Positions 25,067 through 42,402 of a stretch of DNA of 64,000 nucleotides are shown one piece after another. The notes beneath the pieces were generated by a model. The model saw only the letters and a program-made list of their open reading frames with translations, was not told where the DNA came from and did not search any database. The stretch is from Sorangiineae bacterium NIC37A_2 (GTDB taxonomy: Bacteria > Myxococcota_A > Polyangia > Polyangiales > Polyangiaceae), in assembly GCA_002085155.1 (NCBI GenBank), contig NASX01000008.1, positions 62,001 to 126,000 on the forward strand. Reading direction: 5' to 3'. The stretch's first letter is position 1, and the number at the start of each line of letters is the position of its first letter. The position numbers were made by a program, and so were the translations under genes.

Positions 25067-26002
25067 TCAGGTCCCAAGGTTCTGCAAGAACGCATTCGCC
25101 TGAGAGCACTGCGACTTGAACTTCTTCGCACCTTCGCCGGCACAGGCCGACTTGGTGAAGGATTCAAGAAGACGCTTTGCCTTCTCTTTCTGGGGAGGAT
25201 CCATGGAGGCGTAGGTACTCCCGAGGTGGAACTTCGCCTCCGGATGAGTCTCGCCGCCGATCTCGTACGCGCGCTCGACGGAGGCGAGCATGCGGCTCTT
25301 GTCGCCGCTGAACTGTGCGACGTTAAAGCTGAGCAGATACATGTTGTAGACGTTGTCACGCGTCTCTTCAGTGGGCTGGATGTTCTTGGTGCCCTGCTCA
25401 AGGACCTGTCCTGCTTCGCTGTAGAGGCGCAGGACTTGGTAGAGCTCCGCCAAGTTCACATAGAAGTACGCGACGGTGGGGTCGTGCTCGATGGCCTGCG
25501 ACATGCTCTGGAGCGCGCCCTGAATGTCGTCCGTCCACCACTTTGCTTCACCGAGCAGCTCGTAACACCAAGCGCGGTTCGGGTCGGTCTTGATGCACTG
25601 CTCGAGCGGCTCCTTCGCTTCCTGCCAAGCGTCGGGGTTACCGCCTTCCGCTTGCTTGGTGAGCGCGAGACCGCGCTTCTCCCAGTAGTTCGCGAACTCA
25701 GGAGCGATCTGAACAGCCTTGGCGAGCGTGCTCGCCATCTTGTCCCAGTCTTCCTTCTTCTCGTACGCCCGCGCGAGCTTCCAAAGAATCAGATGATTCT
25801 GCGGGTCGAGCTGAAGAGCTTGCTCGTACTTCTGGACCGCACCATCAGGGTTCACTGACACGGCCCGATCCCCCTCGTTAGCAAGGTTGATCGCTTCGAT
25901 GTGGTTTCGACTGCAGCCGACCGAAGTCCATAGAATGGCCAACGCCGACAATGCACGGACTCGCTTCGTCGCTCTCAGAAACATATCACTGACCTCTCTC
26001 AT
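25067..26002 (-). CDS. TPR-repeat lipoprotein
   Basis: A 311-residue protein from the ATG at 26000-26002 with GAGGAG six bases upstream; an ATG at 25984 would also keep the signal peptide. The lipobox SVGC predicts a lipid-anchored envelope protein. The mature part has TPR units (DGAVQKYEQALQLDPQNH, LILWKLARAYEKKEDWDKM, ALQSMSQAIEHDP) up to about residue 260 and a Lys/Ala/Cys tail. It lies between the FHA/AgmX-PglI gene and the giant TPR gene but has its own terminators on both sides (26107-26136 and 25008-25037), so it is probably transcribed alone. I know no exact Glt counterpart; it may be an accessory lipoprotein of the same machine. Confidence 0.75.
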   Translation of the reverse strand: MREVSDMFLRATKRVRALSALAILWTSVGCSRNHIEAINLANEGDRAVSVNPDGAVQKYEQALQLDPQNHLILWKLARAYEKKEDWDKMASTLAKAVQIAPEFANYWEKRGLALTKQAEGGNPDAWQEAKEPLEQCIKTDPNRAWCYELLGEAKWWTDDIQGALQSMSQAIEHDPTVAYFYVNLAELYQVLRLYSEAGQVLEQGTKNIQPTEETRDNVYNMYLLSFNVAQFSGDKSRMLASVERAYEIGGETHPEAKFHLGSTYASMDPPQKEKAKRLLESFTKSACAGEGAKKFKSQCSQANAFLQNLGT

Positions 26003-26106
26003 CATTCTCTCCTCGGTAGCGCTCGTCGTCTCCAAGGATCAACCTAGGCCGATTTCGGCTCCGAAGAATACTCATCGACCGCTCAAGAAGTAAAGACGAA
26101 CAAACA

Positions 26107-26157: not shown

Positions 26158-28263
26158 TCACCCGGGGCTGAACATGATCGGGTAGGTCACCGTCACGATG
26201 CCGCCTTCGGGCTGCGGGAAGCCGAGGCCATAGAAGGCCTGCACCACACAACTCACAACGCCGCTGTCCGGAATGTCCGAACCACCGTTGCCCACGTTCG
26301 AGACCGCCCCGTCACGACCAATCACGAACCGCACCGCAACACGGCCTTCGAGGTTCGGGTTCCTCGTGAGCCCTTGCTCATAACACATGCGGAAGCGACC
26401 GAAGTTCTGACGAACGATACGCTGAATGACCTCTGCCGGGAGACGACCGTTGACGCTCGTCGCGCCCATACGGACCTTGGGAGTCCGAGTCGCGTGCGAC
26501 CCGCCGAGTCGACCGTGACCGGAGCCGAAGCCCTGGCCCGTACCGGTGCCGGCGCCGTGACCCATCGTACCGATGTTTCCGAGGCCGATACCTTCACCGC
26601 GGCCACCGCCGCCTTCACCGATACCCGTCAGACCGAGACCACCAGCACCAAAGGCCTCACCGATCTCATCGCCCCACATGTTTCCTTGGGCGCTCACCTC
26701 GTCAAGACCAGACGAAGTCTCACGGCCGAAGGGCGAGGTCGGAGCGTTCGGATCGCCCGCTGCGCCAGCGTTCAAGAGACCGATCATACCGAAGTCACGG
26801 GCCTCACGAAGCGCCGCTTGCTTCGCCAGGTGCGGATCGGGGTTATCTGCCGGACCCTTCACAGCGTAGCGCTTGTTCTGCGCCTTGCTGGTTTCCTTAC
26901 CCATCGAGCCTTCTTCGCCCTTATGGCGCTCACCGGTGCCGCCTTCTTTGTTGTCGGCGTCCTCGGAGACGACGTCTTCCGTCTTCTCTTCCTGCTCACG
27001 CTCAGCGGCCGCGTTCAGGTACTGCTGAATGAGAAGGAGACGGTTCTTGTCGATTTCGCTCTCGTCGGTCAATCCGAGCGGGGGAACGAAGTACGCCATC
27101 GACGCCAAGAGGCTGCCGAAGGAGAGGAACGTGAGACCGAAGTACATCGCCACGGTCCAGTCGAAGCCTGCTCCCACACCCTTCTTGAAGGGCTTGCCAG
27201 CGTTCACAGCGGCGACCTGGAAGGTGAAGCCGTTGAACTCAATCTTCGCCGAAGCACCCGGACTCAGCGTGAACTGCTGAGCTCCCGGCACCTCACCGCA
27301 GGGCTGCGCGTGGGGGCGAATCTCGTCGACGCTCATCCGCTGCTGGCCGGGGATCTGGATCCAACCGGTGGCGCCTTGCGGCAGCACAACAGCGATATTC
27401 ATCGCGTCGCCCACGACGACGGGCATCTTGCGGATCGGGAGCTTCTCCTCGGGAATGAAGAAGTCCGTCTTGTCCTTCTTGTCCGCGGGGTTCGGCTCAC
27501 CAACATAGAAGCTTCGCGGCGGCGAAAGGTGCGACACGTGGAGCACGTTCGTGTCCCAAGACACGAGCACTTCGACAGCCGGAACGTGGCTCAGCTCAAC
27601 CTCATCCGGAGGCACCGCCGGACCGCTCTTCAACATCTCATAGGTGTAGGTGCCCGGCGCGAGGTCGTCGTGCCCGTGGCCGTGATGCCCCCCACCTGCG
27701 TGGTGGCCACCGAAACCGCCAAAGGCCGGAGGCGCCGGCGGCGGCTGCTGCGCAGGCGCAAACGGGTTCGCAGGAGCCGCGAACGGGTTCGACCCAGCGG
27801 CAAACGGATTCGAACCCGAAGCGAACGGATTCGACGAGACCTGCGGAGCAGGAGCAACGGGAGCCGCAGCGACCGGGGCCGCCGCAGCAACAGGAGCCGG
27901 GACCGCGGCGAACGGGTTCGACGAGATGGCACCCGCCGGCTGAACCTGAGCGCCTGCCGGATCGATCCGCTCCAGGACGATCAGCGTGTTGCCGATGACG
28001 ATCTGGTCACCGACGGCCAGCTTGCACTTGCTGACGGGGGCACCGTTGACCTGCGTCGCGGGCTCATTGCCGAGATCGATCAGAGAGATGTCCTCCGTAT
28101 CGCCCACCTCAATGACCGCATGCATCCGCGAAGCAAGTTCGTCCTCGACCTGAAGATGGCTCTTCGGATCCTTGCCAACCTTGATGATGTCTTGGCTGAT
28201 CGTCTCTCGACGGGACAGCGCATCTCCCTGATAGAGAGCGAACGTGAGAACTGCTTTTGCCAT
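26158..28263 (-). CDS. FHA-TM-AgmX/PglI C-terminal domain protein, GltG-like
   Basis: A 701-residue inner-membrane protein. Domains in order: an FHA domain (about 1-100; IKVGKDPKSHL, SRMHAVIEV); a Pro/Ala linker with five NPF units (about 112-165); a His/Gly-rich stretch; a beta-rich domain to about 355; one transmembrane helix (about 368-392); a charged, Gly-rich periplasmic region; and a C-terminal AgmX/PglI (TonB-C-like) domain at about 605-701 (FRMCYEQGLTRNPNLEGRV, SCVVQAFYGLGFPQPEGG, VTVTYPI). The cytoplasmic-FHA/TM/periplasmic-TonB layout is that of GltG (PglI), which links cytoplasmic signals to the envelope in Myxococcus gliding. Its ATG lacks an obvious Shine-Dalgarno sequence, and a hairpin lies 23 bases upstream. 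Confidence 0.85.
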   Translation of the reverse strand: MAKAVLTFALYQGDALSRRETISQDIIKVGKDPKSHLQVEDELASRMHAVIEVGDTEDISLIDLGNEPATQVNGAPVSKCKLAVGDQIVIGNTLIVLERIDPAGAQVQPAGAISSNPFAAVPAPVAAAAPVAAAPVAPAPQVSSNPFASGSNPFAAGSNPFAAPANPFAPAQQPPPAPPAFGGFGGHHAGGGHHGHGHDDLAPGTYTYEMLKSGPAVPPDEVELSHVPAVEVLVSWDTNVLHVSHLSPPRSFYVGEPNPADKKDKTDFFIPEEKLPIRKMPVVVGDAMNIAVVLPQGATGWIQIPGQQRMSVDEIRPHAQPCGEVPGAQQFTLSPGASAKIEFNGFTFQVAAVNAGKPFKKGVGAGFDWTVAMYFGLTFLSFGSLLASMAYFVPPLGLTDESEIDKNRLLLIQQYLNAAAEREQEEKTEDVVSEDADNKEGGTGERHKGEEGSMGKETSKAQNKRYAVKGPADNPDPHLAKQAALREARDFGMIGLLNAGAAGDPNAPTSPFGRETSSGLDEVSAQGNMWGDEIGEAFGAGGLGLTGIGEGGGGRGEGIGLGNIGTMGHGAGTGTGQGFGSGHGRLGGSHATRTPKVRMGATSVNGRLPAEVIQRIVRQNFGRFRMCYEQGLTRNPNLEGRVAVRFVIGRDGAVSNVGNGGSDIPDSGVVSCVVQAFYGLGFPQPEGGIVTVTYPIMFSPG

Positions 28264-28378: not shown

Positions 28379-28663
28379 TCAGAGGTTCTCAACGGACTTG
28401 AGAAGTTCGTTGATGAACTGCGTGCGCGGCTTGATCAGGGTCGACCTCTGAGCCCCTTTACGAACGCGGATGCGGCTGTCGTTCGGTCCAAAGCCCGCAG
28501 CAGCGAGCGGATCGTCATCGAATTCGTAGCCATAACCATCGCCGCCGGACGTTTCCTTCGCCGCCTGAGCGTGGGCGGTGCCCTCGAACGTGCCGAAAAT
28601 CAGGCCTGCAGCGAGGAGGGTAAGGGCGGTCTTCTTAAAAACGGCGTGAAGTTGAGGAGCCAT
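28379..28663 (-). CDS. Small secreted protein, GltF-position
   Basis: A 94-residue protein with a clear signal peptide (LLAAGLIFGTFEGTAHAQA), leaving about 60 mature residues that are rich in acidic and Gly residues first (GYGYEFDDDPLAAAGF) and then basic, ending RTQFINELLKSVENL. The tail motif PRTxFxxELLKSVE resembles, from memory, small proteins next to aglT in myxobacterial gliding clusters. Its place between the TPR lipoprotein (E position) and the FHA/AgmX-PglI protein (G position) is that of GltF. Role unknown: probably a small envelope component of the machine. Too short for a confident family call by eye. Confidence 0.65.
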   Translation of the reverse strand: MAPQLHAVFKKTALTLLAAGLIFGTFEGTAHAQAAKETSGGDGYGYEFDDDPLAAAGFGPNDSRIRVRKGAQRSTLIKPRTQFINELLKSVENL

Positions 28664-28765: not shown

Positions 28766-30313
28766 TCAGTTGGCCTTGGGAGCAGCGGCAGCGGGCGCCT
28801 TGGCCTCTTCGGCCTTCTTGGCTTCCTCTGCCTTCTTAGCGTCTTCGGCTTTCTTGGCCTCTTCGGCCGCCTTGGCTTCTGCCTCGGCTGCCTTCTTGGC
28901 CGCCTCTTCCTGGGCCTTCATCTCAGCCTGGAAGCGCTTCTCTTCCTCAGCCATGCGCTTGCTCTCCTCCATGAAGATGAGAGTGTCGCGGATGTCCTGG
29001 ATACGCTCCTTGGCGCGCTTGACCGCGTCTTCGAAGCCCTCGCGGCCCTGCGCCTTCGCGACGAAGGACTCATACTGGGCCGAAGCCTTGCTGAACTCGG
29101 CCTTGGTGGCTTCCTCGTTCGGAGCGCGCTTGGCGACGTACTCCTGCGCCAAGATCGCTTCGTTGTAGTAAGCCTCGGGGCGATCGGGCTCGATCTTCTT
29201 GGCCTCGGCCAAGTGCTTCTGGGCCTCGGCGAGGTTCTTCGAGAAGTTCGAGTCGTTGATGCCGCCGCGCAGAGCGAGGGCCAGACCGAGGTGTGCCTCG
29301 TAGGTGTTCGGACGAAGAGCAAGGGCAGCGCGATAGGCCTTCTCAGCTTCCCCGTAACCGCGGAAGGAGAGGTTCACCGCTGCGTAGTTCATCTGCGCCT
29401 CGAAGAACTTCGGGTTCAGCTGAACTGCGCGCTTAAACGCCTTCACCGCACCGTTGTAGTTCTCGAGCTCAACGAGGATCAGACCGCTCGTGTTGTGGAT
29501 CGGAGCGTAGTTCGGGTTCTTCCGCTGCGCCTGCGAAGCAACGAGTGCCGCGAGATCGAGGCGCTGCTTGTTCACCCTCTTCTTCTTGCCGCTCGAAACA
29601 ACGAGGCCCTTCTTCGCACCGACCTCAGCGCGCGCCTGGTTCAGGTAGTAGAGCGCGAGCTGGTTGAACGCCGGCATGAAGCTATCGTCGATCGCGAGAG
29701 CGCGCTGCAGGTTGAGCTGGGCGCACGCCAAATCGTCGGCGCAACCGGAACCGCCCGTCTTGCCATTGCGCTCCATCTGGAGCGCCGCGAGGCTGACGAG
29801 GCCTTCAACGTTCTGGAACTTGCCGTCACGGATGATCTGGTCGAGCTCCGCCACGGCGCTATCGATGTTGCCCGACTCCTTGAAAGAGTAGAGCGCGAGC
29901 TGCGCCTTGGCGCGATGGAACTGGCTGTCGGCATCCGCTGCCTTGCGGAAGCGATCCTTCGCCGCCGCGTCGTTTCCACAGCGCTGATAGGCCAGACCTG
30001 CGTTGTAGTAGGCTTCGGGAAGGTCTTTCCCGGCTGCCGAGCGCTGCTCGGCGCTCGCCGCCTCGAAGGCATCAGCGACAGCTTTGCACTTCGCGTCGTT
30101 CCAGGACCCGGCCTGGTCTTCCTTGACGAAGCTGTCGAGGGCGCCATTGAAGCTCGCCATCGCCCTCTTCGATACGGCGTTACCAGAGCGGTCGGTTTGG
30201 CCGCTGGCATCGCCCGGCTTCAGCTGACTTCCGCCACCGCCTCCACCACCACAAGCCACCGCGCCCATGGTCAGAGCCGCCGCGAGAATCGTCTCAAACT
30301 TCTTCATTGCCAT
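28766..30313 (-). CDS. TPR lipoprotein with Lys/Ala/Glu coiled tail, GltE/AglT-like
   Basis: A 515-residue protein from the ATG at 30311-30313 with GGAGGA eight bases upstream. The signal peptide ends in lipobox GAVAC, followed by a Gly run. TPR units fill the middle (AYYNAGLAYQRCGNDAAAKD, ALAIDDSFMPAFNQLALYYL, AVKAFKRAVQLNPKFFEAQ, AEKAYRAALALRPNTYEAH). From about residue 445 the chain is a highly charged Ala/Glu/Lys helix (repeated AEEAKKAE units), predicted to be a long coiled coil. Size, lipid anchor and TPR content fit GltE (AglT), an outer-membrane lipoprotein of the gliding complex. The order D-E-F-G on this strand also matches Myxococcus. Confidence 0.8.
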   Translation of the reverse strand: MAMKKFETILAAALTMGAVACGGGGGGGSQLKPGDASGQTDRSGNAVSKRAMASFNGALDSFVKEDQAGSWNDAKCKAVADAFEAASAEQRSAAGKDLPEAYYNAGLAYQRCGNDAAAKDRFRKAADADSQFHRAKAQLALYSFKESGNIDSAVAELDQIIRDGKFQNVEGLVSLAALQMERNGKTGGSGCADDLACAQLNLQRALAIDDSFMPAFNQLALYYLNQARAEVGAKKGLVVSSGKKKRVNKQRLDLAALVASQAQRKNPNYAPIHNTSGLILVELENYNGAVKAFKRAVQLNPKFFEAQMNYAAVNLSFRGYGEAEKAYRAALALRPNTYEAHLGLALALRGGINDSNFSKNLAEAQKHLAEAKKIEPDRPEAYYNEAILAQEYVAKRAPNEEATKAEFSKASAQYESFVAKAQGREGFEDAVKRAKERIQDIRDTLIFMEESKRMAEEEKRFQAEMKAQEEAAKKAAEAEAKAAEEAKKAEDAKKAEEAKKAEEAKAPAAAAPKAN

Positions 30314-30337
30314 TTGAATCTTCCTCCGCTTGCTGTG

Positions 30338-30362
30338 GGGAGCGCCCCCTCGGGGCGCTCCC
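30338..30362. other. Perfect hairpin between D- and E-position genes
   Basis: GGGAGCGCCCC-ctc-GGGGCGCTCCC, 11-bp perfect arms, fills half of the 56-base gap between the 1,232-residue TPR gene and the TPR lipoprotein gene and sits just before the latter's Shine-Dalgarno site. No T-run follows. Likely an mRNA-stabilising or attenuating element. Confidence 0.65.
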
Positions 30363-30369
30363 ACTCAGC

Positions 30370-33300
30370 TCATTTTGCCTTCGCTCCGGCCTGGTCCTTG
30401 GTTTCAGGTTCGGCCTTGGGCGCAACGACCAAGGGCTCACCACCGATCTGCAGAGGATTCGGCTGCTCATCGAGCGGGTTGTTCACCTTGTCCGGAGAGC
30501 CGCGGAACTCGTCGACCAAGTGGAACTCGGCCTTGTAGTTGTTCGCGAGCCACTCCTCACAATCGCGGCTGTACTGGTCGAAGTACTGGTACTGAACCGA
30601 GTAACCGAGGCACACGGAGTAGGCACCCTTCGCCTGAACCTTGAAGGGCTCGGAAGCGTCGTCGAGTGCGCCGTAGTAAGCGGTTCGAATTTCGAAATCG
30701 CTCTCCCACTCCTTCGGGATCGGTGCAGAGCGGAAGTCGGAGACGAACGTACCCCACATCTTCCCGACCTGTGAACCGGCCGCGATGACCCAGCGGGGCG
30801 GCGGGACAGGCATCAGGTCGATGATCTTCTTATACTCCTTGGTGACCTCGGCGATCATCTCCTTCTTCTTGGTGTACCAATCCTTCACCTTCGTGGAGAT
30901 GTGCTTGTTGATGCCTTCCTTGTCCTTCACGCCGTTGTACTTCGGGAAGGTGTAGGCATCGACCTTCGCCTTCGACTTCTCAGCGAAATAGAAGAGCGCC
31001 TCGCCGACTGACTCGAGCGCACGACCGAGCTCACGCTGACCACCGCCGGCGTCCTCGATTGCCTTGGCAGCCTTCGCCGGATCGCTCCAGAGGCCGACTA
31101 CGATCTTGTACTCGCGGTCAGCGATCGGGGCGGTCTTCAGGTTCACGCCAGCTTTGCCAAGCAGAGCGTGAGCCTGGAGGCGAACGTCCAGAGACGCGTT
31201 CTTGTCGATCATGCTCATCGCACCACCGAGCGACTTACGTACCTCGTCCCACTTACCAGCGTTGGCGTAGTGATCCGCGATAGCGAAGCCAATCTGAGCG
31301 GCCTGAGCCGGCTTACGAGCGCCGAACTTCGACTGGAAGATCTTCGCTGCGTCGAGTGCCTTCTGCTCTTGACCGAGACCGAGTCGCAGAACGACGGCGT
31401 CGGAGAGAGCCTGGTCGGCGTTCTCTGCGCGGTAACCGGTCTCAGCTGCGTACCGCTCATAGAAGTCCGCGGCGCGATCGTAGACGGCGATGGCCTGGTA
31501 GTTTCCACCGATCTCGTAGAGAGCCTTCTTCGCGAGCTCGGTCCCGTGCATCCCGTACTTCGGGTTGATCAGGATCATGCGCGCTTGGATCGACTTCGCG
31601 AGCAGGCGGCCTGCCTGGTAGGCGCGAGCCATGTTGTAGACGATTTCGTGCGCGGTCTCGCACTGCTTCGGCTTCTCACCAGCAGCGAGCGGGGCCTCAC
31701 AATACTCACGCCAGATGGCGAGGTACTGGTCACCGCCGGTCTTGTAGTTCTCGAGGGCCTCCCGGAAGTTGCCCTTGTCGGCCTGCGAGTCCGCGAGCTC
31801 GACGCGCTTCTGCGCGGCGAGACGCTTCACGTCGAACTCGATGCGGGTGAGGAGCTCACATTGCTCCTTGTTCTCCTCAAAGTCAGCGCCCTTGCAGAAG
31901 TTCTGGATGAACTTAGGCACGTCCGTCGCCATCTCGTCGAAGCAACCCGGACGCGGAGGCTCCGCCTTCGAACCGAGGACGTTGAGAGCTTCGAGGTAGA
32001 GCTGAGCCGCGAAGATACCGGCGTCGTGATCCGCATGGTTGAGCGCGATGTCACGGAAACCGAGAGCAGCCTCTTCCCAGTGCTGAGCCTCGAAGTAGGT
32101 ACGCGCACGGGCGTACTTCACTTCGACGTACTGCTCCTTCGCCTCTTTGTTCCCCTCAGCCGGCTTGATGTAGCAAACGTAACGGTTGAACGCCGTCACC
32201 ATGCCCTTCTGCTGCTCGGTGAACTCCTTCGGCTTGAACTTCTCCCACTCGCCAGCCTTCGCCTTGCGATCCTCCTCGGAAGCGCCCTTCGGGCCGAGGC
32301 CCTTGCCCTTCCGATCCGCCGCACCAGCGTACATCTGGTCGTACATCTTCTGGTAGCAAAGAACCGAAGCGTAGGCGGCCTCAGGGGCGTCGGGACCGGT
32401 CGGGTCTTCAGCGACGACCGAGTCGAACGCCGGACCGCACTCTTCCCACTTCTTGCGGAAGTAGAGGAGGTCGGCCATCGCGTACTTGATCTTGTAGATC
32501 GTCGGCCAGTCTTCCTTGACGATGCGCGGGAACTTGAACTGCTTGAAGTCGTCGACCGTGAAGTTCGTGACAACGAGCTTGTAGACCTCTGCGGCGAGAT
32601 CCATCGTGCGCTCGTCGCCCGTTCCGCGGACGCCGCCCGTACCGACCGCTTCGAGGTGCCAGCTCATCGCCGTCTCAGCGAGGATGCCAGCGGTCTCATT
32701 GGCGCACTCGAGCTTCTTGGCATCGGGGACGCTCATCGACATGAACGTCTTGTGCGCTGCGATCTGAGCGTCGAGCTCCTTACGGATCTTGGTCTTGTCG
32801 CCGGAGTAAGCCGCCTGCACCGCGTGGGTGATCTGGCTCTGGTAGCTGCACCACTGCTCGCCCTTGTCGCGCGACATCAAGCTCTTGTAGAGCTCGATGG
32901 CCTCGGGATAGTGACCAGTGTCGAGGTAGGCGTAACCGAGGTCACGCATCATCGACAGGGTCTGGTCGTCGGAGCCAGCCTTGTCACCAGAGAGCGGCTT
33001 GAAGGTCTGGTACGCGCGATCCGGCTTCTCGCTCGCCGCGTACACAGGGATCAAATCCTTGCGCGCGGATTTCGCGAGCTGAGCGGCGTTCGGAAGATCC
33101 GAGTAGGTCGTGCCGTACTTGATGACTTCCTTGAACTGCTCAAGGGCCTGCTTGTAGAGACCCTGGTTCCAGTAGACGTAAGCGAGCTTATAACGCGCGT
33201 AGCCCCAGAGCTTATTCTTGGGCGGCGGGTGCTTCATCACCTCGAGGTAAGCAGCCTCGGCCAGAGCCCACTTGGACGGGTCAGCGGTTGCTTCCTGGAA

Positions 33301-34068
33301 GAAGAGCTCACCGAACGCCAGGTAAGCGTTCGGGACGTACGTGGACTTCGGTGCCTTCTCGATCAGGTCGAAGTAAGTCTTACGAGCGTTCTGGAGATCG
33401 CCCGCCTGCTCGTACTCGTAAGCGAGATAGTAGAGGACCTCGTCGAGCTTCGAGTAGCTCGAGTAGGACTTCACCATCTGCTGGTAGTACTTGATCGCGC
33501 TCTTGCGCGCGCTCGTCTCGATGGCCTTGGCCTTCGAGATCTCCTGCTTCTCCTTGGAGGTGTCCTGCTTCTTGGCCTTCTTGTCCTGAAGCTTGATGTC
33601 GGCTGCGATCTTGTCGCGAATGGCCGCCTGCTCGAGCTCGGCGTAACCTTCAGCGAGACGAAGCACGAGCTGCGGACGATCCGGTGAGTCCTTCGGCGTC
33701 TGCTTGAAGAGGCGCTCGAGACCCTGGATCTCCGTGATCAGGAGGGCGCGCGCCCTCTGCTGCATCTTGCCTTTACGGCTATCGCGCTCAGCGAGGTTCT
33801 CGAGCATCGAGAGGTCGCCGGGCTTGTAATCGCTCTTCGCCTTAGCGGTGGCCGGAGGCGGCGCGGTCTTGAACGCAGTGCCCGCACGCTTGCGGCCCTC
33901 CGTCTTCATCGCTCCCTTCGGACACTCATTGATGGCCTGCTGGGCCTGAGGCGAGATGCACTGCCCTCCGGCCGCCGGAGCGGTCTTGGCGGTTTCAGCG
34001 GCGAGCGCCGAGCCCCCGACCCAAAGTCCAGCCGCGGCCAGAACTGCTGCAACAAATTGTAAACGCAT
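30370..34068 (-). CDS. Large secreted TPR protein, GltD/AgmU-like
   Basis: A 1,232-residue periplasmic protein with a signal peptide (LQFVAAVLAAAGLWVGGSALAA) and many TPR-like helical repeats (EVLYYLAYEYEQAGDLQNA, EAAYLEVMKHPPP, YARYKLAYVYWNQGLYKQAL and others) interrupted by Lys-rich helices. The start is well placed: GGAAGG nine bases upstream overlaps the stop of the preceding gene, leaving a 6-base gap and suggesting translational coupling. Length and type fit GltD (AgmU, about 1,200 residues, TPR and HEAT-like, periplasmic) of the Myxococcus gliding machinery, and it precedes the E-F-G-like genes in the same order. Homology rests on architecture and synteny. Confidence 0.8.
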   Translation of the reverse strand: MRLQFVAAVLAAAGLWVGGSALAAETAKTAPAAGGQCISPQAQQAINECPKGAMKTEGRKRAGTAFKTAPPPATAKAKSDYKPGDLSMLENLAERDSRKGKMQQRARALLITEIQGLERLFKQTPKDSPDRPQLVLRLAEGYAELEQAAIRDKIAADIKLQDKKAKKQDTSKEKQEISKAKAIETSARKSAIKYYQQMVKSYSSYSKLDEVLYYLAYEYEQAGDLQNARKTYFDLIEKAPKSTYVPNAYLAFGELFFQEATADPSKWALAEAAYLEVMKHPPPKNKLWGYARYKLAYVYWNQGLYKQALEQFKEVIKYGTTYSDLPNAAQLAKSARKDLIPVYAASEKPDRAYQTFKPLSGDKAGSDDQTLSMMRDLGYAYLDTGHYPEAIELYKSLMSRDKGEQWCSYQSQITHAVQAAYSGDKTKIRKELDAQIAAHKTFMSMSVPDAKKLECANETAGILAETAMSWHLEAVGTGGVRGTGDERTMDLAAEVYKLVVTNFTVDDFKQFKFPRIVKEDWPTIYKIKYAMADLLYFRKKWEECGPAFDSVVAEDPTGPDAPEAAYASVLCYQKMYDQMYAGAADRKGKGLGPKGASEEDRKAKAGEWEKFKPKEFTEQQKGMVTAFNRYVCYIKPAEGNKEAKEQYVEVKYARARTYFEAQHWEEAALGFRDIALNHADHDAGIFAAQLYLEALNVLGSKAEPPRPGCFDEMATDVPKFIQNFCKGADFEENKEQCELLTRIEFDVKRLAAQKRVELADSQADKGNFREALENYKTGGDQYLAIWREYCEAPLAAGEKPKQCETAHEIVYNMARAYQAGRLLAKSIQARMILINPKYGMHGTELAKKALYEIGGNYQAIAVYDRAADFYERYAAETGYRAENADQALSDAVVLRLGLGQEQKALDAAKIFQSKFGARKPAQAAQIGFAIADHYANAGKWDEVRKSLGGAMSMIDKNASLDVRLQAHALLGKAGVNLKTAPIADREYKIVVGLWSDPAKAAKAIEDAGGGQRELGRALESVGEALFYFAEKSKAKVDAYTFPKYNGVKDKEGINKHISTKVKDWYTKKKEMIAEVTKEYKKIIDLMPVPPPRWVIAAGSQVGKMWGTFVSDFRSAPIPKEWESDFEIRTAYYGALDDASEPFKVQAKGAYSVCLGYSVQYQYFDQYSRDCEEWLANNYKAEFHLVDEFRGSPDKVNNPLDEQPNPLQIGGEPLVVAPKAEPETKDQAGAKAK

Positions 34069-34074
34069 TATCGA

Positions 34075-35826
34075 TTACCTTCCGCATGCCGACATGACTT
34101 CTTGGCGATAGAAGCCAAGCTCGTCGCGCCAGTACTCCCCGTCAAACGGCCACATAAAGTGCTCATCATCCGGATTCACAACACCAAAGAGCTGCGCGTC
34201 GGTCTTGCTCACCTGGCCCTCCTTCAAGGCCTGATCGAGAAGGTTCCGTTGCGCGGCGGTAATATCAATGAGGATCTTCTCCCCGTTCCTCAAGTGCTCG
34301 CCCATCTCGTCGATGTAGCGGCGGTAGCGCTGCATCGCGAGCTGCCCCGCCTGAGTGACGGCGCGCTCACGAGCGAGCTGAATCTGCTGCTGAACATAGC
34401 TCCCCACCGATGAAGCTTTGAAGTCGGGCGGAGCAGCCTGATAGTGCTTCGCTTCCTTCTCGAGGAACTCCACGTAGCTGATGTTGCGGAGCAGCTGACG
34501 ATCACCGAGCGCAGCAGCGACGAGCGGCTCGACCTCCGGATCGAGGTTCGCGTCTCCATCACGCACCTTCACCAGGAACTTATAAAAGGCCTCCGCCTGG
34601 TTCTCGCCCTCGTACTTCTTCATGATCGCCTCAAGCTTCTCCTTGAGGGGCGTCGTCTTCGTATTGAAGCGAGCAACCACCGTCGTGGCAGACTCGTAGT
34701 CGCAGTTGAAGAAGTAGACGATCGCCTTCAAAATGTCGGCTTCGGGATAGAACGCGCGGGGGAAGTAGGGCGACTTCAGCGTGTGGATGTTGCCGAGGGC
34801 GCGGGTGTACTGACCTGCCATGTAGTAGGCCCAGGCTTCCTCGAAGTGAGCGTCGAGCCAGTACTCGGAGCTCTCGTCGACCTGGTTCCAGTACTTCACG
34901 GCCGCGCTCAAGTGCTCCTCTTTGATGTTCGGCACGTTGGTCTCGGGGTCGAGCTGGATCGACGCGGAGTACATCGTGCGAGCCATCGAGAGGCGAGCCA
35001 GATCACGCATGCGCGCGGCGTCTTCGACCTTCGCGCCGTCATCGACGGCCTTCTCGACGCGCTTGAACGCCTCGACAGCAGCGACCGCCTTCTTCAGCTG
35101 GATGTAGCTGACGCCCGTGAAGAACTGAGCCTTCACATAGTTCTCCGAACGGCTGTCGACACGGTTGAAGAGACGAACCGCCTCCTCGAACTCGTTCTGG
35201 CGGTAGCGGTAGCGACCGAGCAGGTAGTTCAGCGTCCAGTACAGCTCCTTCTGCGCCGCGTTATCGAAGGTCGACAGATGCTGATCGGAGTACTTTCCGA
35301 CGTGGGACACGATGTCCGCCGGCTCGGGCAGGTCGGTCGTGAGCTTAGCGATCCAAAGCAGCGTCTCGTTGAACTTGAGGTGCTTCGGGTTCGCCGCGAT
35401 CTTGGCGAAGCCGTCGAAGCTCGCCTGGTAGAACTTCAAATAATAGAGAGCCTGCGCGAGGTAGAACTCCGCAAGCTGCTTGTTTCCAGCATCATCAGAG
35501 GTCGCACCGGAGACCACGTCGTACATGCCCGACGCAGCTTTCGGCCAGTTCTTCTGGTCGAAAGCCTGCTTAGCGGAGGCCATCTCGGCGCTCGGCTGAC
35601 CTGCTACGGCCGCCACGCCGCCGCCGTCGTCCTCATCCATATCGATGACGCCGCTCTTCTTCGCGCCGCCAGTGCTCTTCTTCACGGTCTTAACGGGTTT
35701 CGCGGGCGCGTCGTCTTCGTCGTCGAGATCGATCACCTCGGCCGCTGCGGTCGCGGGACCCAACCCGGTGAACGCGATGGCGGCTGCAAGAAGGGCCCGG
35801 GTGGCTACAAGGCGCGGTCGAATCAT
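34075..35826 (-). CDS. Secreted TPR-like protein, possible GltC counterpart
   Basis: A 583-residue protein from the ATG at 35824-35826 (GAGGA close upstream; the longer open frame lacks coding character). The signal peptide (ALLAAAIAFTGLGPATAAAE) is followed by an acidic region with two VIDxDxxD repeats and a Lys/Gly linker, then helical repeats typical of TPR proteins (AEFYLAQALYYLKFYQASFDGF, EAVRLFNRVDSRSENYVKAQ, EEAWAYYMAGQYTRALGNI). The C-terminus (MWPFDGEYWRDELGFY) is distinctive. It is the first gene of the 22-kb minus-strand block and ends 6 bases before the GltD-like gene. GltC/NfsC are periplasmic TPR proteins of similar size, so a C-type role is plausible. Confidence 0.75.
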   Translation of the reverse strand: MIRPRLVATRALLAAAIAFTGLGPATAAAEVIDLDDEDDAPAKPVKTVKKSTGGAKKSGVIDMDEDDGGGVAAVAGQPSAEMASAKQAFDQKNWPKAASGMYDVVSGATSDDAGNKQLAEFYLAQALYYLKFYQASFDGFAKIAANPKHLKFNETLLWIAKLTTDLPEPADIVSHVGKYSDQHLSTFDNAAQKELYWTLNYLLGRYRYRQNEFEEAVRLFNRVDSRSENYVKAQFFTGVSYIQLKKAVAAVEAFKRVEKAVDDGAKVEDAARMRDLARLSMARTMYSASIQLDPETNVPNIKEEHLSAAVKYWNQVDESSEYWLDAHFEEAWAYYMAGQYTRALGNIHTLKSPYFPRAFYPEADILKAIVYFFNCDYESATTVVARFNTKTTPLKEKLEAIMKKYEGENQAEAFYKFLVKVRDGDANLDPEVEPLVAAALGDRQLLRNISYVEFLEKEAKHYQAAPPDFKASSVGSYVQQQIQLARERAVTQAGQLAMQRYRRYIDEMGEHLRNGEKILIDITAAQRNLLDQALKEGQVSKTDAQLFGVVNPDDEHFMWPFDGEYWRDELGFYRQEVMSACGR

Positions 35827-35931
35827 GTTTCCTCGTGTGCTTTCGTGGGATGAGAGATAGCGGGGTTCCCGAAAACCGATGTGCGACGGGTTTGCAGTCT
35901 TACTGAAAGTATCCAATCGCAAAAAACTTAA

Positions 35932-36009: not shown

Positions 36010-36187
36010 AGTCTGAGTCACATTCCGCCGAGCAAAACAGGAAGCCCCCCTCCTTGCAAATCGGCCGCAAATTTCTAGGAATTACCGGCAAATCCAGCTG
36101 GGCCCCCTGCGAGCATCCATTGACGCAATTCCAGCCTGAGAGTATAGGACCGGAAAAGCCGAGAGACGCTTGGCCCAAGGATCACGA

Positions 36188-36865
36188 ATGCGACTGTATC
36201 TATTCTTTGCAATGGCCATCGGTGCTTCCTTCATTGGAGGAAGTTGCGGTCCGGCTGGAGTGGGCGACCCCTGTGTTCCCGAAGAAGAGTATCTGACGGA
36301 CTTCCCCGGCTTCAATGAGAGCGAAGTCAACGTCGAGAGCCGCTCCTTCCAGTGTGTGACTCGCGTGTGTCTCGTGAATCACTTCCGCGGCCGTGTCTCC
36401 TGTCCTTATGGACAGTCTGAAGAGACCGCTCAAAAGTGCAGCACGGACGCGAACGCCTGTAGGCCGGGTTCGCCGGAGCACGAAATCAGCTGCCGCGTGC
36501 CGGACCGTGACGGTTCCGAGCTGACCGATCGCGTTAAGATCGGAATCCAGCCTCAGTACGATAACCGCAAGGCGCGCGACACCGTTTACTGCTCGTGCCG
36601 TTGCGCCGGTCCGGACCCGAACGCCCGGTACTGCGAGTGCCCGAGCGGCTTCACGTGTGAAGATCTCATGGCCGACCTCGATATCGGCCGCGGACAGCTC
36701 GCAGGAAGCTACTGCGTCATCGACGGGACCAGCTACGACAGCACGAGCTCCCAGGGTGACGATTGCTCCCCCACCAAGGGCAACTGCGGCTACACGGTCG
36801 GATCCGGAAGTGAGAAGCGCGGCGTGAACCCGCCGAACCCGGCTATCGCCGCAGACTCCATCTAA
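36188..36865 (+). CDS. Cys-rich lipoprotein, function unknown
   Basis: A 225-residue protein starting at ATG 36188 with AAGGA six bases upstream. The signal peptide ends in lipobox GGSC followed by GPAGVGDPC, a style common among myxobacterial surface lipoproteins. The mature protein has more than a dozen Cys, many in close pairs (CSCRCAGPDPNARYCEC), suggesting a disulfide-rich extracytoplasmic fold. No enzymatic motif is recognised. It is divergent from the Glt-like cluster and shares its control region, so it could be expressed with it and act at the cell surface, but this is only positional. A strong terminator (36904-36928) follows. Confidence 0.75.
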   Translation: MRLYLFFAMAIGASFIGGSCGPAGVGDPCVPEEEYLTDFPGFNESEVNVESRSFQCVTRVCLVNHFRGRVSCPYGQSEETAQKCSTDANACRPGSPEHEISCRVPDRDGSELTDRVKIGIQPQYDNRKARDTVYCSCRCAGPDPNARYCECPSGFTCEDLMADLDIGRGQLAGSYCVIDGTSYDSTSSQGDDCSPTKGNCGYTVGSGSEKRGVNPPNPAIAADSI

Positions 36866-37426: not shown

Positions 37427-39001
37427 ATGCTGATGCGGCGAGCCCAGACCCGAACCTGTACTTGGGCCATCGGGGCCTTTGGAGCGCTCATATTGAGCAC
37501 GGGAATCAGCTCGGCCGAGACCTTCGAGGCACCTCTTTCGATCGAAGGAGAGCTCGCCCTGCGGGTGACGCAGGCCTCGGGGCTTGTGATGGTTCGCGTA
37601 GAAGATGAATCCGGCGCCCCCGTGTCAGGTGCGAGGGTTCAAGTCGACGCCGGTTCACTTCAGAGCTGTGACGGTGGACCGCCCTCCCAGGTATCGGGAG
37701 GTGACGGAAGCGTTTGTTTTCGAAGCGACGGCTCACTCGACGGTATTCGACTTCGCGCGGAGAAGGAGCATTTCGCGGGGACCTCCCTGAGCGTCACACT
37801 CGGCGAAGACGATGGCGCGCCAGAGCTTGTGATCTGGCCGCGCGTCATTCACCTTGAGCGAGATGAACTCCACCCCATCGAAGTGGCCCGAGTGCGCCCT
37901 GGTCCTTTGAGCCTGTCGCTTGTCTGTGGAGAGAAAGAGCGCGAACTCACGCGCGCTGAGGTCAACGAGGCAACCTCGATCAGGCTGGAGGTTCCGACCA
38001 GCGCGTTCCAACAATACCCAGGCATCTGTGAGTTGTTTGCTTCACAGTTCGCTCTCAAGAGCCCGGCTACCCGAGTCCTCTTGCGCGGCACCGTCGGCCT
38101 GAAGCTCGGTGGTATTTCCGAACAGGACTCCACGCTCGCGATTGAGATCGACGTCCAAGGAGATTTCGGCCCCGTTCAGGGCGGTGCGGTCGAGCTCATA
38201 CAAACAGGCTCTATCGTTGCGGCCGCGGCCGTACAGAACGGTCGCGCGCGCTTTGAACTTCCGGCTGAACGGTCGGGCCAGCGTAGCACCGTCCGGTTTG
38301 TGAGCGCCGACCCGGCGCTGGTCAGCGGAGCGCCCCTCGAGCTCGAGCTTCCACGCGTCACGCCACGTTCATCTTCCCGCGCCTGGCTGGCCTTGCCTCT
38401 CGTTCTTTTCCTCATCTGGCTCGTGCAGCGCCTGACGGGAGCCAGCCCTCGCGTGCGACCGAGCGTCCCAACGCTCAAGACAAAGCCGCGCGAAGTATCC
38501 CCCCCGGTCCCTGTGCACGGCGTCGTGTTTGACATCGACACCCACGAGCGCCTCGCCGGTGCGACGGTCGAGCTGTTCCGCTTTGAAGCAACTCGCCGCG
38601 AGCTCCTCGAGGCGACCGTCTCCGCTCCCGACGGCTCCTTCTCGTTCTCCCGAATCGGTAGCGACCAGACGGATTGGGAGGTCGAGTGTTCGGCTCCGGG
38701 CTACCCGCCTCTCCGGCTTCGACCGGCCCAAACGGCGCTGCGCGTGGGCCTCGTGGCCAAGAGACGGGTGCTGCTCCGGGCCTTTCTGAATTGGCTCGAG
38801 CGCGCAAATGATTGGTCGCCGAAGCGGCGCCCTGTGCCGACTCCGCTCGAGGCTGCCGCGCGAGCAAGACAAGAGGGACGAGAAGACGTCGTGCGCTGGG
38901 CCGAAGCCCTGAGCGCCCACCTCTACGGCCCGCGCTCGGAGGGCGAAGACCCGGATACTGACCTTCCACCGGAGCCACCGCCCCTCGGTGCTTTGCGTTG
39001 A
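37427..39001 (+). CDS. Exported membrane protein with carboxypeptidase-regulatory-like domains
   Basis: A 524-residue protein with an N-terminal signal peptide (AIGAFGALILSTGISSAE), beta-rich extracytoplasmic domains and one strong membrane helix at about 320-340 (WLALPLVLFLIWLVQRL). At least two segments resemble the carboxypeptidase-regulatory or SdrD-B-like beta-sandwich: VRVEDESGAPVSGARVQVDA near residue 55 and VHGVVFDIDTHERLAGATVEL near 365. The tail is charged and proline-rich. No catalytic motif is visible. The membrane topology would put the second domain on the other side from the first. It is followed by ftsY after 35 bases and may be co-transcribed. Function unknown. Confidence 0.7.
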   Translation: MLMRRAQTRTCTWAIGAFGALILSTGISSAETFEAPLSIEGELALRVTQASGLVMVRVEDESGAPVSGARVQVDAGSLQSCDGGPPSQVSGGDGSVCFRSDGSLDGIRLRAEKEHFAGTSLSVTLGEDDGAPELVIWPRVIHLERDELHPIEVARVRPGPLSLSLVCGEKERELTRAEVNEATSIRLEVPTSAFQQYPGICELFASQFALKSPATRVLLRGTVGLKLGGISEQDSTLAIEIDVQGDFGPVQGGAVELIQTGSIVAAAAVQNGRARFELPAERSGQRSTVRFVSADPALVSGAPLELELPRVTPRSSSRAWLALPLVLFLIWLVQRLTGASPRVRPSVPTLKTKPREVSPPVPVHGVVFDIDTHERLAGATVELFRFEATRRELLEATVSAPDGSFSFSRIGSDQTDWEVECSAPGYPPLRLRPAQTALRVGLVAKRRVLLRAFLNWLERANDWSPKRRPVPTPLEAAARARQEGREDVVRWAEALSAHLYGPRSEGEDPDTDLPPEPPPLGALR

Positions 39002-39036
39002 CGACGGAATCCATAGGTCCCTATAGTGGCGCACCC

Positions 39037-40344
39037 ATGGAACTCGTCGTCGTGTTGGTCGCCCTGCTTTTGGCAGGGGCCTTCTTTTACTTCCGGAGCC
39101 AAAAGCGTAAGGCCGAAGAAAGCGCGCATCCGATTGACGAGCCGGCCCGCGACGCTCCCGCCCCCCGACCCCTCGAGCCTCGTCCCGCCTCCCCTCCTCC
39201 CGCTCAAACACCCGCGGTAGAGCAAGAGGTCGTGCTGCGTGAGAAAGAGGAACAGGCAGCGCCCGAGCCGGACGTCCTGTCGATCCCGACGACAGAGACC
39301 GAAGCGGATCCTGCAGCGCTCCTCCCCTCCATCCCTCCCGACGCTGTTTCGCCGCCTGCGCCTGTACGCAGCGAAACGCCGCGCAGCACGCGCCGGAGTC
39401 AGGTCGATTTCAAGAGCCTGCGCCGCGGTCTCGCTAAGACACGCGAGGAGACAGGCTTCTTTGGCAAGTTGAAGAACCTGCTCTCGGGCAAAAAGGAGAT
39501 CGCTCCTTCCATCGCGACCGAGATCGAGGAGCTCCTTCTGACCTCTGACGTTGGGGTGAAGACCACGGCGCGTATCTTGGGCGGGCTCACCGCGCGCCTG
39601 GGGCGCGGCGAGCTCTCTGACGAAGAGGCAGTGTGGGGCGCGCTGCGCGAGGAGGCGTGCCGCATCGTCGACGTCGAGGGGCGTACGGGGCCGCTCGAGC
39701 AAACGGCGACGCCGACCGTGATCCTCTTCGTAGGCGTCAATGGTGCCGGAAAAACGACAACCATCGGGAAGCTTGCGCGTCAGCTCAAGTCACAGGGACA
39801 TTCGGTCATGTTAGCTGCCGGTGATACCTTCCGCGCCGCCGCGGTCGAGCAGTTGCGCGCGTGGGGCGAACGAACGGAGTGCGAGGTCATCGCAGGCAAG
39901 GAAGGCGCCGATCCGAGTAGCGTTTTGTTTGACGCCGTCGAGCGCGCCAAGCAAAGTGGCGTCGACTTCCTCTTGGCGGACACGGCCGGACGCCTCCACA
40001 CCAAAGCGAACCTGATGCAGGAGATGACCAAGATCGAGCGCACATTGGGCAAGGCCCTGCCCGGCGCGCCCCATGAAATCTTCCTCGTCATCGACGCCAC
40101 CAATGGCCAAAACGCGATGGCTCAGGCGCGAGAGTTCAAAGAAGCGCTCTCTGTCAGCGGGCTCATCCTGACGAAGCTCGACGGAACGGCGCGCGGCGGC
40201 GTGGTGCTCGGCATTTGCGACACGCTCAGCGTGCCCGTTCGCTATGTGGGAGTCGGCGAGAAGCCGGAAGATCTCCAAGAGTTCGGGGCTGCCGAATTCG
40301 TGGAAGCACTGCTCGGAAAGGACGACGGCGGAATTGCCGCCTGA
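39037..40344 (+). CDS. ftsY: Signal recognition particle receptor FtsY
   Basis: A 435-residue protein from ATG 39037, right before an N-terminal membrane helix (VVVLVALLLAGAFFYF); the longer frame overlaps the previous gene. A Pro/Ala/Glu-rich acidic A domain (about 25-135) precedes the N and G domains. The SRP-GTPase motifs are all present: GVNGAGKTTTIGKLA (P-loop), AAGDTFRAAAVEQL, ADTAGRLH and TKLDGTARGG. FtsY receives ribosome-SRP complexes at the inner membrane for co-translational insertion. The true membrane helix is a feature of some Gram-negative lineages, unlike the amphipathic anchor of E. coli FtsY. Confidence 0.96.
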   Translation: MELVVVLVALLLAGAFFYFRSQKRKAEESAHPIDEPARDAPAPRPLEPRPASPPPAQTPAVEQEVVLREKEEQAAPEPDVLSIPTTETEADPAALLPSIPPDAVSPPAPVRSETPRSTRRSQVDFKSLRRGLAKTREETGFFGKLKNLLSGKKEIAPSIATEIEELLLTSDVGVKTTARILGGLTARLGRGELSDEEAVWGALREEACRIVDVEGRTGPLEQTATPTVILFVGVNGAGKTTTIGKLARQLKSQGHSVMLAAGDTFRAAAVEQLRAWGERTECEVIAGKEGADPSSVLFDAVERAKQSGVDFLLADTAGRLHTKANLMQEMTKIERTLGKALPGAPHEIFLVIDATNGQNAMAQAREFKEALSVSGLILTKLDGTARGGVVLGICDTLSVPVRYVGVGEKPEDLQEFGAAEFVEALLGKDDGGIAA

Positions 40345-40361: not shown

Positions 40362-40391
40362 TTGATCGGGCGATTTTGACCGTGGTATATT
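40362..40391 (+). promoter_or_regulatory. Candidate sigma70-type promoter for the barrel pair
   Basis: TTGATC (40362-40367) and TATATT (40386-40391) are separated by 18 bases, a near-consensus -35/-10 pair. It lies about 145 bases upstream of the first barrel gene, in an AT-rich gap after ftsY. Confidence 0.55.
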
Positions 40392-40534: not shown

Positions 40535-41464
40535 ATGAAGTACACTCCCATCGGGCTCCTGGTAGCCGCCGCGCTGTGGGCCTTTCCCGGTACGGCCCTG
40601 GCCCAGGAGGTAGAGGACACGGAAGAAACTGAGGCCGTCGAAGACGAGGGCGACACCGAAGGCGTGGAGGCTGGCGACGAAGAAGATGTCGGTCTCGGTG
40701 ACATCTGCGAGGTCGACCCAGAAGCCTGTCCGACCCTCGACATGAAGAAGGAGGCTGCCAAGCCGCTCGACGAGACGATCTTCGCGGTCCAGCAGCGCTT
40801 CATCATCAAGAAGCGGCGCTTCGAGCTGCAGCCGTTCTGGGGGTTCACGCTGAACGATCAGTTCGTCTCCCACCACGCGCCGGGTCTGGCACTGAACTAC
40901 TACATCACCGAAGTCTTGGCGGTGGGCATCAACGGTCAGTTCTTCCAGCCCTTCAACAATGACTCCGCCTTCAATGCTCAGGTTCGCCGCGCCGCTCGTG
41001 TGGTCGTACCCCTGACTGAGTATCAGTGGAGCGCGGCCCTGAACTTCACGTACGTGCCCGCGAACGGCAAGTTCGCTGGTTTCCAGAACTTCATCTTCCA
41101 CTACGACGCCTACGTCGTCGGCGGCATCGGCGCCCTCAGCACCCGGCCGATCCCGGTGGTCGATCCGGACAACCGAAACTTCGATTGGCAGCCGAACATC
41201 GCCTTCAATGCAGGCGTCGGTCTGAAGATCTTCTTCAATCGCTGGTTCGCAGCGGTCCTCGAGGTGCGCGACTACATCTTCCTGGACAAGATCGAGAACA
41301 CGGTCGTCCGCGAGGACAATCCGGCTGACACCAACGGGTGGTACGGTCCCGACGCCCTCACCAACAACGTCCAAGCTCAGCTTGGTGTATCTGTGTTCAT
41401 TCCCTTCTCCTTTGAGTATCGCTTGCCGAAAGCGGGAGCTGACACGTCGGGAGGCGCGAAGTGA
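40535..41464 (+). CDS. Outer-membrane beta-barrel protein, first of tandem pair
   Basis: A 309-residue exported protein from ATG 40535, chosen because a signal peptide (GLLVAAALWAFPGTALAQE) follows at once. Next comes a strongly acidic segment (about 25-60, Glu/Asp/Val), a small CEVDPEACP motif, then alternating beta-strand patterns from FIIKKRRFELQPFWGFTLND to a C-terminal VSVFIPFSFEYRL. This is the layout of the myxobacterial outer-membrane barrel family that includes, as far as I recall, the GltA/GltB and NfsA/NfsB type. Its stop overlaps the frame of the second barrel, so the pair is an operon. It is 4.7 kb from the Glt-like cluster and divergent from it. Confidence 0.75.
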   Translation: MKYTPIGLLVAAALWAFPGTALAQEVEDTEETEAVEDEGDTEGVEAGDEEDVGLGDICEVDPEACPTLDMKKEAAKPLDETIFAVQQRFIIKKRRFELQPFWGFTLNDQFVSHHAPGLALNYYITEVLAVGINGQFFQPFNNDSAFNAQVRRAARVVVPLTEYQWSAALNFTYVPANGKFAGFQNFIFHYDAYVVGGIGALSTRPIPVVDPDNRNFDWQPNIAFNAGVGLKIFFNRWFAAVLEVRDYIFLDKIENTVVREDNPADTNGWYGPDALTNNVQAQLGVSVFIPFSFEYRLPKAGADTSGGAK

Positions 41465-41490
41465 GCCGCCGCATGCAAGGTCATAGGACA

Positions 41491-42402
41491 ATGAGAACGA
41501 ACATGTTCAAGACATTATCGGCCCGGTTGTTTGCCCCGGGGATCCTCGCGCTCGGAGTCCTCTTCGGCGCCCCCGAAACCGCCCAGGCGGAGGAGATCAA
41601 GCTCACCGGTCCCCTGGCTGGCGCGCCCGCCGTACGTAACATGCGCCTCTATCGGCAAGGCCGCGTCGAGCTGTCCCCGAACGTCAGCTTCACGCTCCTC
41701 GACGAGTACCGAAGGCAGATCATCTTCGGGCTTCGCGCCAACTACGGCGTCTTCGACTGGCTGTCGGTGGGCGTCTGGGGCGGAGTCAGCACCTCGCTCC
41801 TTGGCGCGCACATCGATACGGACCTCACGAGTGACATCCAGGGGGTGAACGCTGGCCGTCAGTGCCGCGGAGACTCTGCTCCGGTCCAGGGCGATCCCGG
41901 CTTCATCGACTGCGAGCTCACGGGCGTGAACCTGGGGAGCGACTTCAGGAACCAGGTCGCGTCTCTCGACTGGATCCTGGCGCCGCAGCTCACCGCAGTA
42001 CCGTTTCGCGGAAAGCTCGGTCTGTTCAACAGCCTGTTCGTAGACTCTGAGCTCTACGTGTTCGCCGGTCCCGCCTTCGTGGGGCTCCGCCAGCGGCCCG
42101 ATTGCTCGGAAGGCTCCTGTACGGCGCTTTCGACGTTCACCACGTCAGCGACGATGGCCATCGCCCCGACCTTCGGTCTCGGATTCTCCTTCTTCTTCAA
42201 CAAGTGGATGGCCATCGGGACCGAGTACCGCGCGCTTCCGTTCGCCTGGAACACGGGCGGGTTCGACGTCGCCGGGCGCGGTCCGAGCGAGCAGTTCCCC
42301 GACGGCGCCATCAGCAGCGCCGACAGCCAGTTCAAGTTCAATCACCTCCTCTCGGTCAGCTTCAACATGTACCTGCCGATGGACTACAAGGTGACGGAAT
42401 AA
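41491..42402 (+). CDS. Outer-membrane beta-barrel protein, second of tandem pair
   Basis: About 303 residues from ATG 41491 (AGGA close upstream). A GTG at 41461, overlapping the previous stop as GTGA, is an alternative. The signal peptide (LFAPGILALGVLFGAPETAQA) is followed by RLYRQGRVELSPNVSFTLLDEYRR and alternating strands, ending LLSVSFNMYLPMDYKVTE. Two Cys pairs (QCRGDSAP...CELTG and CSEGSC) sit in probable surface loops. It resembles its upstream neighbour in plan but only weakly in sequence. Paired barrels of this type (GltA/GltB, NfsA/NfsB) are outer-membrane parts of the gliding and spore-coat machines, so a link to the nearby Glt-like cluster is plausible. Confidence 0.72.
   Translation: MRTNMFKTLSARLFAPGILALGVLFGAPETAQAEEIKLTGPLAGAPAVRNMRLYRQGRVELSPNVSFTLLDEYRRQIIFGLRANYGVFDWLSVGVWGGVSTSLLGAHIDTDLTSDIQGVNAGRQCRGDSAPVQGDPGFIDCELTGVNLGSDFRNQVASLDWILAPQLTAVPFRGKLGLFNSLFVDSELYVFAGPAFVGLRQRPDCSEGSCTALSTFTTSATMAIAPTFGLGFSFFFNKWMAIGTEYRALPFAWNTGGFDVAGRGPSEQFPDGAISSADSQFKFNHLLSVSFNMYLPMDYKVTE

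Follow-up and report, generated by a model that had tools for sequence, protein, structure and literature searches.

In Myxococcus xanthus, gliding needs the outer-membrane barrels GltB and GltA, which stabilise each other and also bind and stabilise GltC (PMC4488436). GltH is listed as a further outer-membrane part of the Glt machinery (PMC3169522). The M. xanthus genes gltA, gltB, gltC, gltD, gltE, gltF, gltG and gltI are split over two clusters, and gltG is followed by gltH and gltI (PMC3169522). Moreover, gltA and gltB have been listed in Sorangium and other Myxococcales, the G1 and G2 homologues are described as grouped in Anaeromyxobacter, and it has been speculated that possession of AglRQS and GltDEFGCAB makes any bacterium a potential glider (PMC3169522). 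GltI, GltJ, GltK/CglC and GltH are outside this proposed minimal set (PMC3169522).

Here, we analysed 64,000 nucleotides from Sorangiineae bacterium NIC37A_2 (the window), in which an earlier note had pointed to a tandem of outer-membrane barrel genes close to a Glt-like block. In our reading, to which we assign a probability of about 0.82, the two genes are counterparts of gltB and gltA, in this order, and would encode the outer-membrane anchor of an Agl-Glt machine.

Results

Two barrel genes downstream of ftsY

The features of the window are listed in Table 1. The barrel genes had been described as an overlapping pair of the myxobacterial type. Both open reading frames are present, and barrel 1 matched the NCBIfam model TIGR04565 (OMP_myx_plus) with 92.1 bits, above the curated cut-off of 60, whereas barrel 2 stayed below it with 37.3 bits and is therefore a relative of OMP_myx_plus rather than a filed member. 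The overlap depends on the start codon of barrel 2, for which GTG 41461, ATG 41473 and ATG 41491 are candidates. Only the GTG start gives an overlap (4 nt), which would equal the 4-nt overlap of gltB and gltA at the M. xanthus locus L124, and neither ATG gives any. The signal-peptide-like character of both protein starts was judged by eye. A Pfam search of the two barrels returned no match up to E 0.1. Of 58 relatives, the source genome not counted, 56 had a barrel-1 match of 207 bits or more, which is more than chance. Two other places in the source genome matched TIGR04565 weakly (contigs C110 and C23; loci L213 and L214), and the window's Glt genes were unmatched around them.

Table 1 Features of the window, with positions counted from its first nucleotide. 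Bit scores are given with the cut-off of the respective model where there is one.
Feature	Position	Strand	Remarks
gltI-like giant TPR gene	14083..24561	-	3492 aa; 426 bits to M. xanthus GltI
TPR gene after gltG	25067..26035	-	
gltG-like FHA/TonB-like gene	26158..28263	-	NF033760, 301 bits (cut-off 650)
gltF/cglF-like small gene (weak)	28379..28663	-	NF033764, 26.7 bits (cut-off 90)
gltE-like TPR lipoprotein gene	28766..30364	-	NF033758, 64.6 bits (cut-off 225)
gltD-like TPR gene	30370..34068	-	1232 aa; 117 bits to M. xanthus NfsD, taken as reference; relatives adjoin gltC
gltC-like TPR gene	34075..35922	-	NF033756, 247 bits (cut-off 450)
Cys-rich lipoprotein-like gene	36170..36865	+	Weak candidate for a GltK/CglC counterpart; divergent from gltC
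ftsY	38998..40344	+	Immediate upstream neighbour of the barrels; PF00448, 256.7 bits
Promoter-like site	40362..40391	+	Between ftsY and gltB-like gene; consensus match only; 1 found, shuffle mean 0.2
gltB-like gene (barrel 1)	40535..41464	+	ATG 40535, 309 aa; start resembles a signal peptide; N-terminal segment long and acidic; 8-stranded outer-membrane barrel predicted
gltA-like gene (barrel 2)	41461..42402	+	N-terminal segment short; outer-membrane barrel predicted, with 8 strands and a long loop 2
Terminator-like stem-loop	42458..42484	+	After gltA-like gene; consensus match only; 1 found against a shuffle mean of 1.7, a count that is not significant

Relation to the paired barrels of M. 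xanthus

To place the two proteins among the M. xanthus paralogues, we used GltB, GltA and GltC of strain AM003 (locus L124) and NfsA, NfsB and NfsC of locus L207, all recognised by gene order and by the lengths printed in PMC3169522 and PMC2875238. The HMM profiles comprised 20 same-order orthologues plus the window protein. Barrel 1 scored highest with GltB (77.4 bits), followed by GltA (57.2), NfsB (55.8) and NfsA (31.2), and barrel 2 with GltA (65.8 bits), followed by NfsA (39.4), the barrel of a third M. xanthus cluster (29.1), GltB (28.8) and NfsB (17.7). BLAST gave the same best matches (barrel 1: GltB 76.3, GltA 64.7, NfsB 55.8; barrel 2: GltA 47.0, GltB 31.2, NfsA 25.0), as did profile-profile comparison, where the preference of barrel 1 for GltB (3.6e-34) over GltA (3.7e-32) was narrow, with NfsB at 3.7e-12, and barrel 2 reached 3.6e-23 with GltA, 4.6e-14 with GltB and 3.6e-10 with NfsA. 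The homology to the Glt pair suggested by the earlier note is borne out by these comparisons, and the barrels did not group with unrelated porins. The order B then A in the window is also that of L124, while the nfs genes run A then B (L207). In the reverse view, the GltA profile scored 215 with barrel 1 and 157 with barrel 2 in the profile-profile comparison, which makes barrel 1 the closer of the two.

GltH, which had also been named for comparison, did not hold up as a relative: its HMM scores of 0.1 and −1.3 with the two barrels indicate no sequence relation. The GltH query was cut from a longer open reading frame in locus L260, of which the final 209 residues were used in line with the printed length.

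The third M. xanthus cluster (locus L208, 303-11197) contains gltG-, barrel-, gltC-, gltD- and gltE-like genes with a single short barrel. The M. xanthus clusters G4 and G5 are mentioned as being of unknown role in PMC3169522.

In the barrel trees, the barrel-1, barrel-2, NfsA and NfsB sequences each held together, as did GltA and GltB except for two deltaproteobacterial loci. The joining order of the groups was unsettled, and none of the groupings with a completed AU test was rejected. The AU p-values were 0.547 for barrel 1 with GltB and 0.603 for barrel 2 with GltA, compared to 0.287 and 0.101 for the swapped groupings, and one quick tree placed barrel 1 beside NfsB with a support of 83. 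With the deep barrel tree ambiguous and barrel 1 as the closer match of the GltA profile, a one-to-one orthology of barrel 1 with GltB and of barrel 2 with GltA is not proven.

Predicted fold, N-terminal segment and loop 2

AF2 models, calculated with the window proteins and relatives of GltB and GltA as input, showed eight long strands in each barrel, with mean pLDDT values of 76.1 for barrel 1 and 73.4 for barrel 2. The top PDB matches of these models in Foldseek include OmpA, OprF, NspA and OmpW, with OmpA and OprF as the best, and a sequence search of the PDB with the barrel-1 alignment gave no match. Long loops lie on one face of the models and both termini on the opposite face. By the standard OmpA layout, the face with the termini would be periplasmic, and the acidic N-terminal segment of barrel 1 is therefore placed in the periplasm.

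This segment had been called unusual. It is indeed present, with a net charge of −18 over the 77 residues taken, but it is usual on the B side: the 14 barrel-1 sequences of the order had a median segment length of 106.5 residues and a median net charge of −15, and the 16 first barrels of the named loci had medians of 80.5 residues and −4. Judging by these sequences, a long acidic N-terminal segment is a typical B-side feature. For the second barrels, the corresponding median lengths were 35 and 43 residues. All these figures were derived with cleavage sites guessed by a script and include overlong starts in two barrel-2 sequences and one first-barrel sequence. The barrel topology of GltB given in PMC4488436 omits the N-terminal 80 residues.

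Loop 2 comprises 19 residues in 14/14 barrel-1 sequences and in 14 GltB sequences (L181 and L183 are the exceptions), and carries an Arg-rich run in barrel 1 and GltB (RRAAR-like; RxAKR-like; the likeness was judged by eye). Barrel 2 and GltA share a longer loop 2 (medians of 33 and 32 residues) next to their shorter N-terminal segment. A Cys pair in loop 2 of GltA was found in 14 of the 16 second barrels of the named loci compared to only 2 of the 14 barrel-2 sequences, and a loop-2 disulphide was therefore dropped as a mark of GltA.

Gene neighbourhood and co-occurrence

The distance between the start of gltC (35922, minus strand) and that of barrel 1 (40535) is 4.6 kb, close to the 4.7 kb given earlier, and a yraN-like gene and ftsY lie between the gltC block and the barrel block. 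The arrangement ftsY-barrel 1-barrel 2 on a single strand was present in all 22 relatives that were fetched (20/20 chosen loci L085-L104 as well as L253 and L255). Among the paper titles listed by a literature search, none named the ftsY-gltB-gltA arrangement.

For GltC, a match (E up to 1e-20) was present in all but 2 of the 58 relatives. The genomes lacking barrel 1 (G036, G044) or GltC (G003, G019) are all 80-86% complete. Among the 56 genomes with barrel 1, GltC was encoded on the same contig in 37 and on a different contig in 17, and was missing in 2. In each of the 37 same-contig relatives, which represent seven families, barrel 1 and gltC were divergent and 3,485-10,758 bases apart. The linkage is broken in two genomes of family f6 (G041 and G055), which carry ftsY with the barrels and gltC on separate long contigs. 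A further relative, G011 (loci L253, L254 and L261), has kept the lipoprotein gene, yraN, ftsY and the barrel pair, with no gltC block seen alongside; its only relatives of GltC (38% identity) and GltG are encoded on other contigs.

Across the phylum as a whole, members of the barrel family were found at E 1e-5 in 20/20 chosen GltC-positive compared to 3/20 GltC-negative genomes (Fisher p = 3e-8), and above the cut-off in 18/20 compared to 0/20 (p = 3e-9); since the two sets have no family in common, kinship may be part of the cause. The expectation that the barrels occur together with Glt-like genes is supported within the order and beyond it.

The barrels directly adjoin gltC in Myxococcia and in genome G059. 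The latter contains two separate clusters (L065 and L066), each with a barrel, gltC, gltD and gltE, and a single barrel, not a pair, was found ahead of each gltC. In L065 (6094-10220), a VWA-domain gene lies directly ahead of the single barrel and gltC, an arrangement suggestive of a surface adhesin gene that accompanies those of the machine. When tried as CglB, this gene gave weak matches to other models.

Other parts of a Glt-type machine

The proposal that Glt parts are encoded here on opposite strands, within 28 kb, agrees with our annotation: gltC, gltD, gltE, gltG and gltI counterparts, with gltF weakly matched, lie on the minus strand beside the barrel pair on the plus strand, and the gltI-like gene and barrel 2, taken as end points, span 28.3 kb (14083-42402), with aglR, aglQ and aglS counterparts elsewhere in the genome. 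None of the window's Glt genes for which there is an NCBI model reaches the equivalog cut-off, and among 377 genomes of the phylum, just 1 reaches the cut-off for GltC. A quick tree, which came with long-branch warnings, joined the window GltC to those of Myxococcia and others (support 91), away from NfsC and a third type. The gltG-like gene product matched the myxo_SS_tail model with 84.1 bits, above its cut-off of 40. It was closer to NfsG (104 bits) than to GltG (78 bits) by BLAST, and closer to GltG (198.3) than to NfsG (140.7) by phmmer. Relatives of the gltF/cglF-like gene are located between gltE and gltG in L072 and L256.

The gltI-like protein aligns collinearly with the C-terminal portion of M. 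xanthus GltI (4132 aa), with 27% identity over 1605 columns, and the reversed sequence, used as a control, gave no match. The Cys-rich lipoprotein-like gene recurs in the order, and its orientation has a parallel at the M. xanthus locus L124, where cglC and the glt operon diverge; the profile-profile match of the window gene's product to CglC/GltK is weak, with a probability of 63% over only 49 columns. As to the TPR gene after gltG, 10 of the 20 loci L065-L084 had matches of 36-66 bits at roughly this position, where it should be considered that TPR repeats match loosely. The gene may encode a standing, still unnamed part of the machine.

On contig C9 of the source genome, we identified an AglR partner with 49.8% identity over 205 aa, which was a reciprocal best match (among 8 and 8 MotA/ExbB proteins). 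It is followed, in order, by a Q-like (33% over 75 aa) and an S-like gene (33.5% over 185 aa). Full-length GltJ was not found in this genome, where the best of the partial matches scored 43.2 bits (cut-off 450). Overall, the genome contains candidates for all of AglRQS and GltDEFGCAB, with gltF weakly matched.

Discussion

The assignment of the pair to gltB and gltA builds on the observed family, pairing, gene order and co-occurrence of the barrels, on the homologues of other machine parts and on a predicted fold. Outer-membrane location and orientation, binding of GltC and use for gliding are what analogy to M. xanthus would lead us to expect. In such a machine, two small OmpA-like barrels would reside in the outer membrane, with the acidic N-terminal segment of barrel 1 reaching into the periplasm. 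Like their M. xanthus counterparts, the barrels would be mutually stabilising and would hold GltC, a TPR protein of the periplasm, and the pair would serve as the outer-membrane anchor that couples a periplasmic GltC-D-E scaffold to the surface. The other parts of this envelope-spanning machine would be supplied by the divergent stretch with gltC-D-E-(F)-G and gltI, and the drive would come from an AglRQS motor whose genes lie at another place in the genome.

An Nfs-type identity of the pair, as part of a spore-coat machine instead of a gliding machine, would fit the contiguous C-D-E-F-G order, which resembles the nfs operon (L207), the BLAST ranking of GltG and the quick tree with barrel 1 next to NfsB. 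Nevertheless, we judge it improbable: the best barrel matches were GltB or GltA by HMM, profile-profile comparison and BLAST, the pair has the B-A order, and the window GltC falls into the GltC clade. Furthermore, the source genome has an AglR counterpart and the window a relative of GltI, a protein that does not appear in the nfs region as described in PMC3169522. Even more improbable, in our view, is that the barrels are general outer-membrane proteins which travel with ftsY and owe their closeness to gltC to an inherited gene order without function. It is true that ftsY and both barrels have stayed together where gltC is not alongside (G041, G055 and G011), and that the yraN-like gene and ftsY separate the two blocks. 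However, the barrel family follows GltC outside the order as well (20/20 compared to 3/20 genomes, in chosen sets that have no family in common), the barrels adjoin gltC itself in Myxococcia and G059, and they are homologous to GltB and GltA.

A different question is whether a Glt-type machine in this lineage now serves something other than gliding. The source genome has no full-length GltJ and just a weak match to GltK, and the related M. xanthus clusters G3 (which is nfs), G4 and G5 are described as not serving motility (PMC3169522). We consider such a change of function unlikely, though less so than the two alternatives above, as the genome has candidates for all parts proposed for a potential glider in PMC3169522, gltF weakly. 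It may also be speculated that the locus preserves an early, compact machine, with barrels, periplasmic scaffold, GltG and the giant GltI encoded within 28 kb, which runs in the absence of canonical GltJ and perhaps also of GltH and CglC. Such a gliding motor would be smaller or of different build, and the TPR protein encoded at 25067-26035 would stand in the position of gltH in M. xanthus. We regard this idea as rather doubtful.

If the two genes are gltB and gltA counterparts, as we favour, the paired barrels likely belong with the Glt block, and homologues of gltA, gltB, gltC, gltD, gltE, gltG and gltI, with gltF weakly matched, are located in one 28-kb stretch. The recurring layout, with gltI to gltC on one strand and lipoprotein-yraN-ftsY-gltB-gltA on the other, helps to find and name Glt parts in the order. 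Moreover, the locus can serve as an outgroup for separating core Glt parts from Myxococcus-specific additions. Given the earlier listing of gltA and gltB and the grouping reported for Anaeromyxobacter, the surprise is small. The Glt barrel kind itself is known, and what is new here is the assignment of the window pair together with the recurring ftsY-gltB-gltA / gltC layout.

Comparison with known systems

With regard to the fold, the eight-stranded transmembrane domain of OmpA and OprF is common to both window barrels according to Foldseek. The sequence identity is about 8-10%, and the window barrels have no further C-terminal domain. Within the family, TIGR04565 matches Glt and Nfs barrels alike and can therefore not separate them. 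NfsA and NfsB (MXAN_3371, MXAN_3372) are paired barrels of the same family that adjoin a C-D-E-G operon (L207), as is the case here, but they match the window proteins more weakly than the best Glt barrel, are arranged in the order A-B instead of B-A, and have a C protein that belongs to another clade. The M. xanthus pair GltB and GltA (MXAN_2539, MXAN_2540) shares with the window pair the tandem B-A order, the best match, the long N-terminal segment in B alone and the linkage to gltC, at 27% and 26% identity. It differs in that M. xanthus gltBA lies in the same operon as gltC, whereas the window pair follows ftsY and diverges from gltC, and in that barrel 2 and its relatives mostly lack the Cys pair in loop 2 of GltA.
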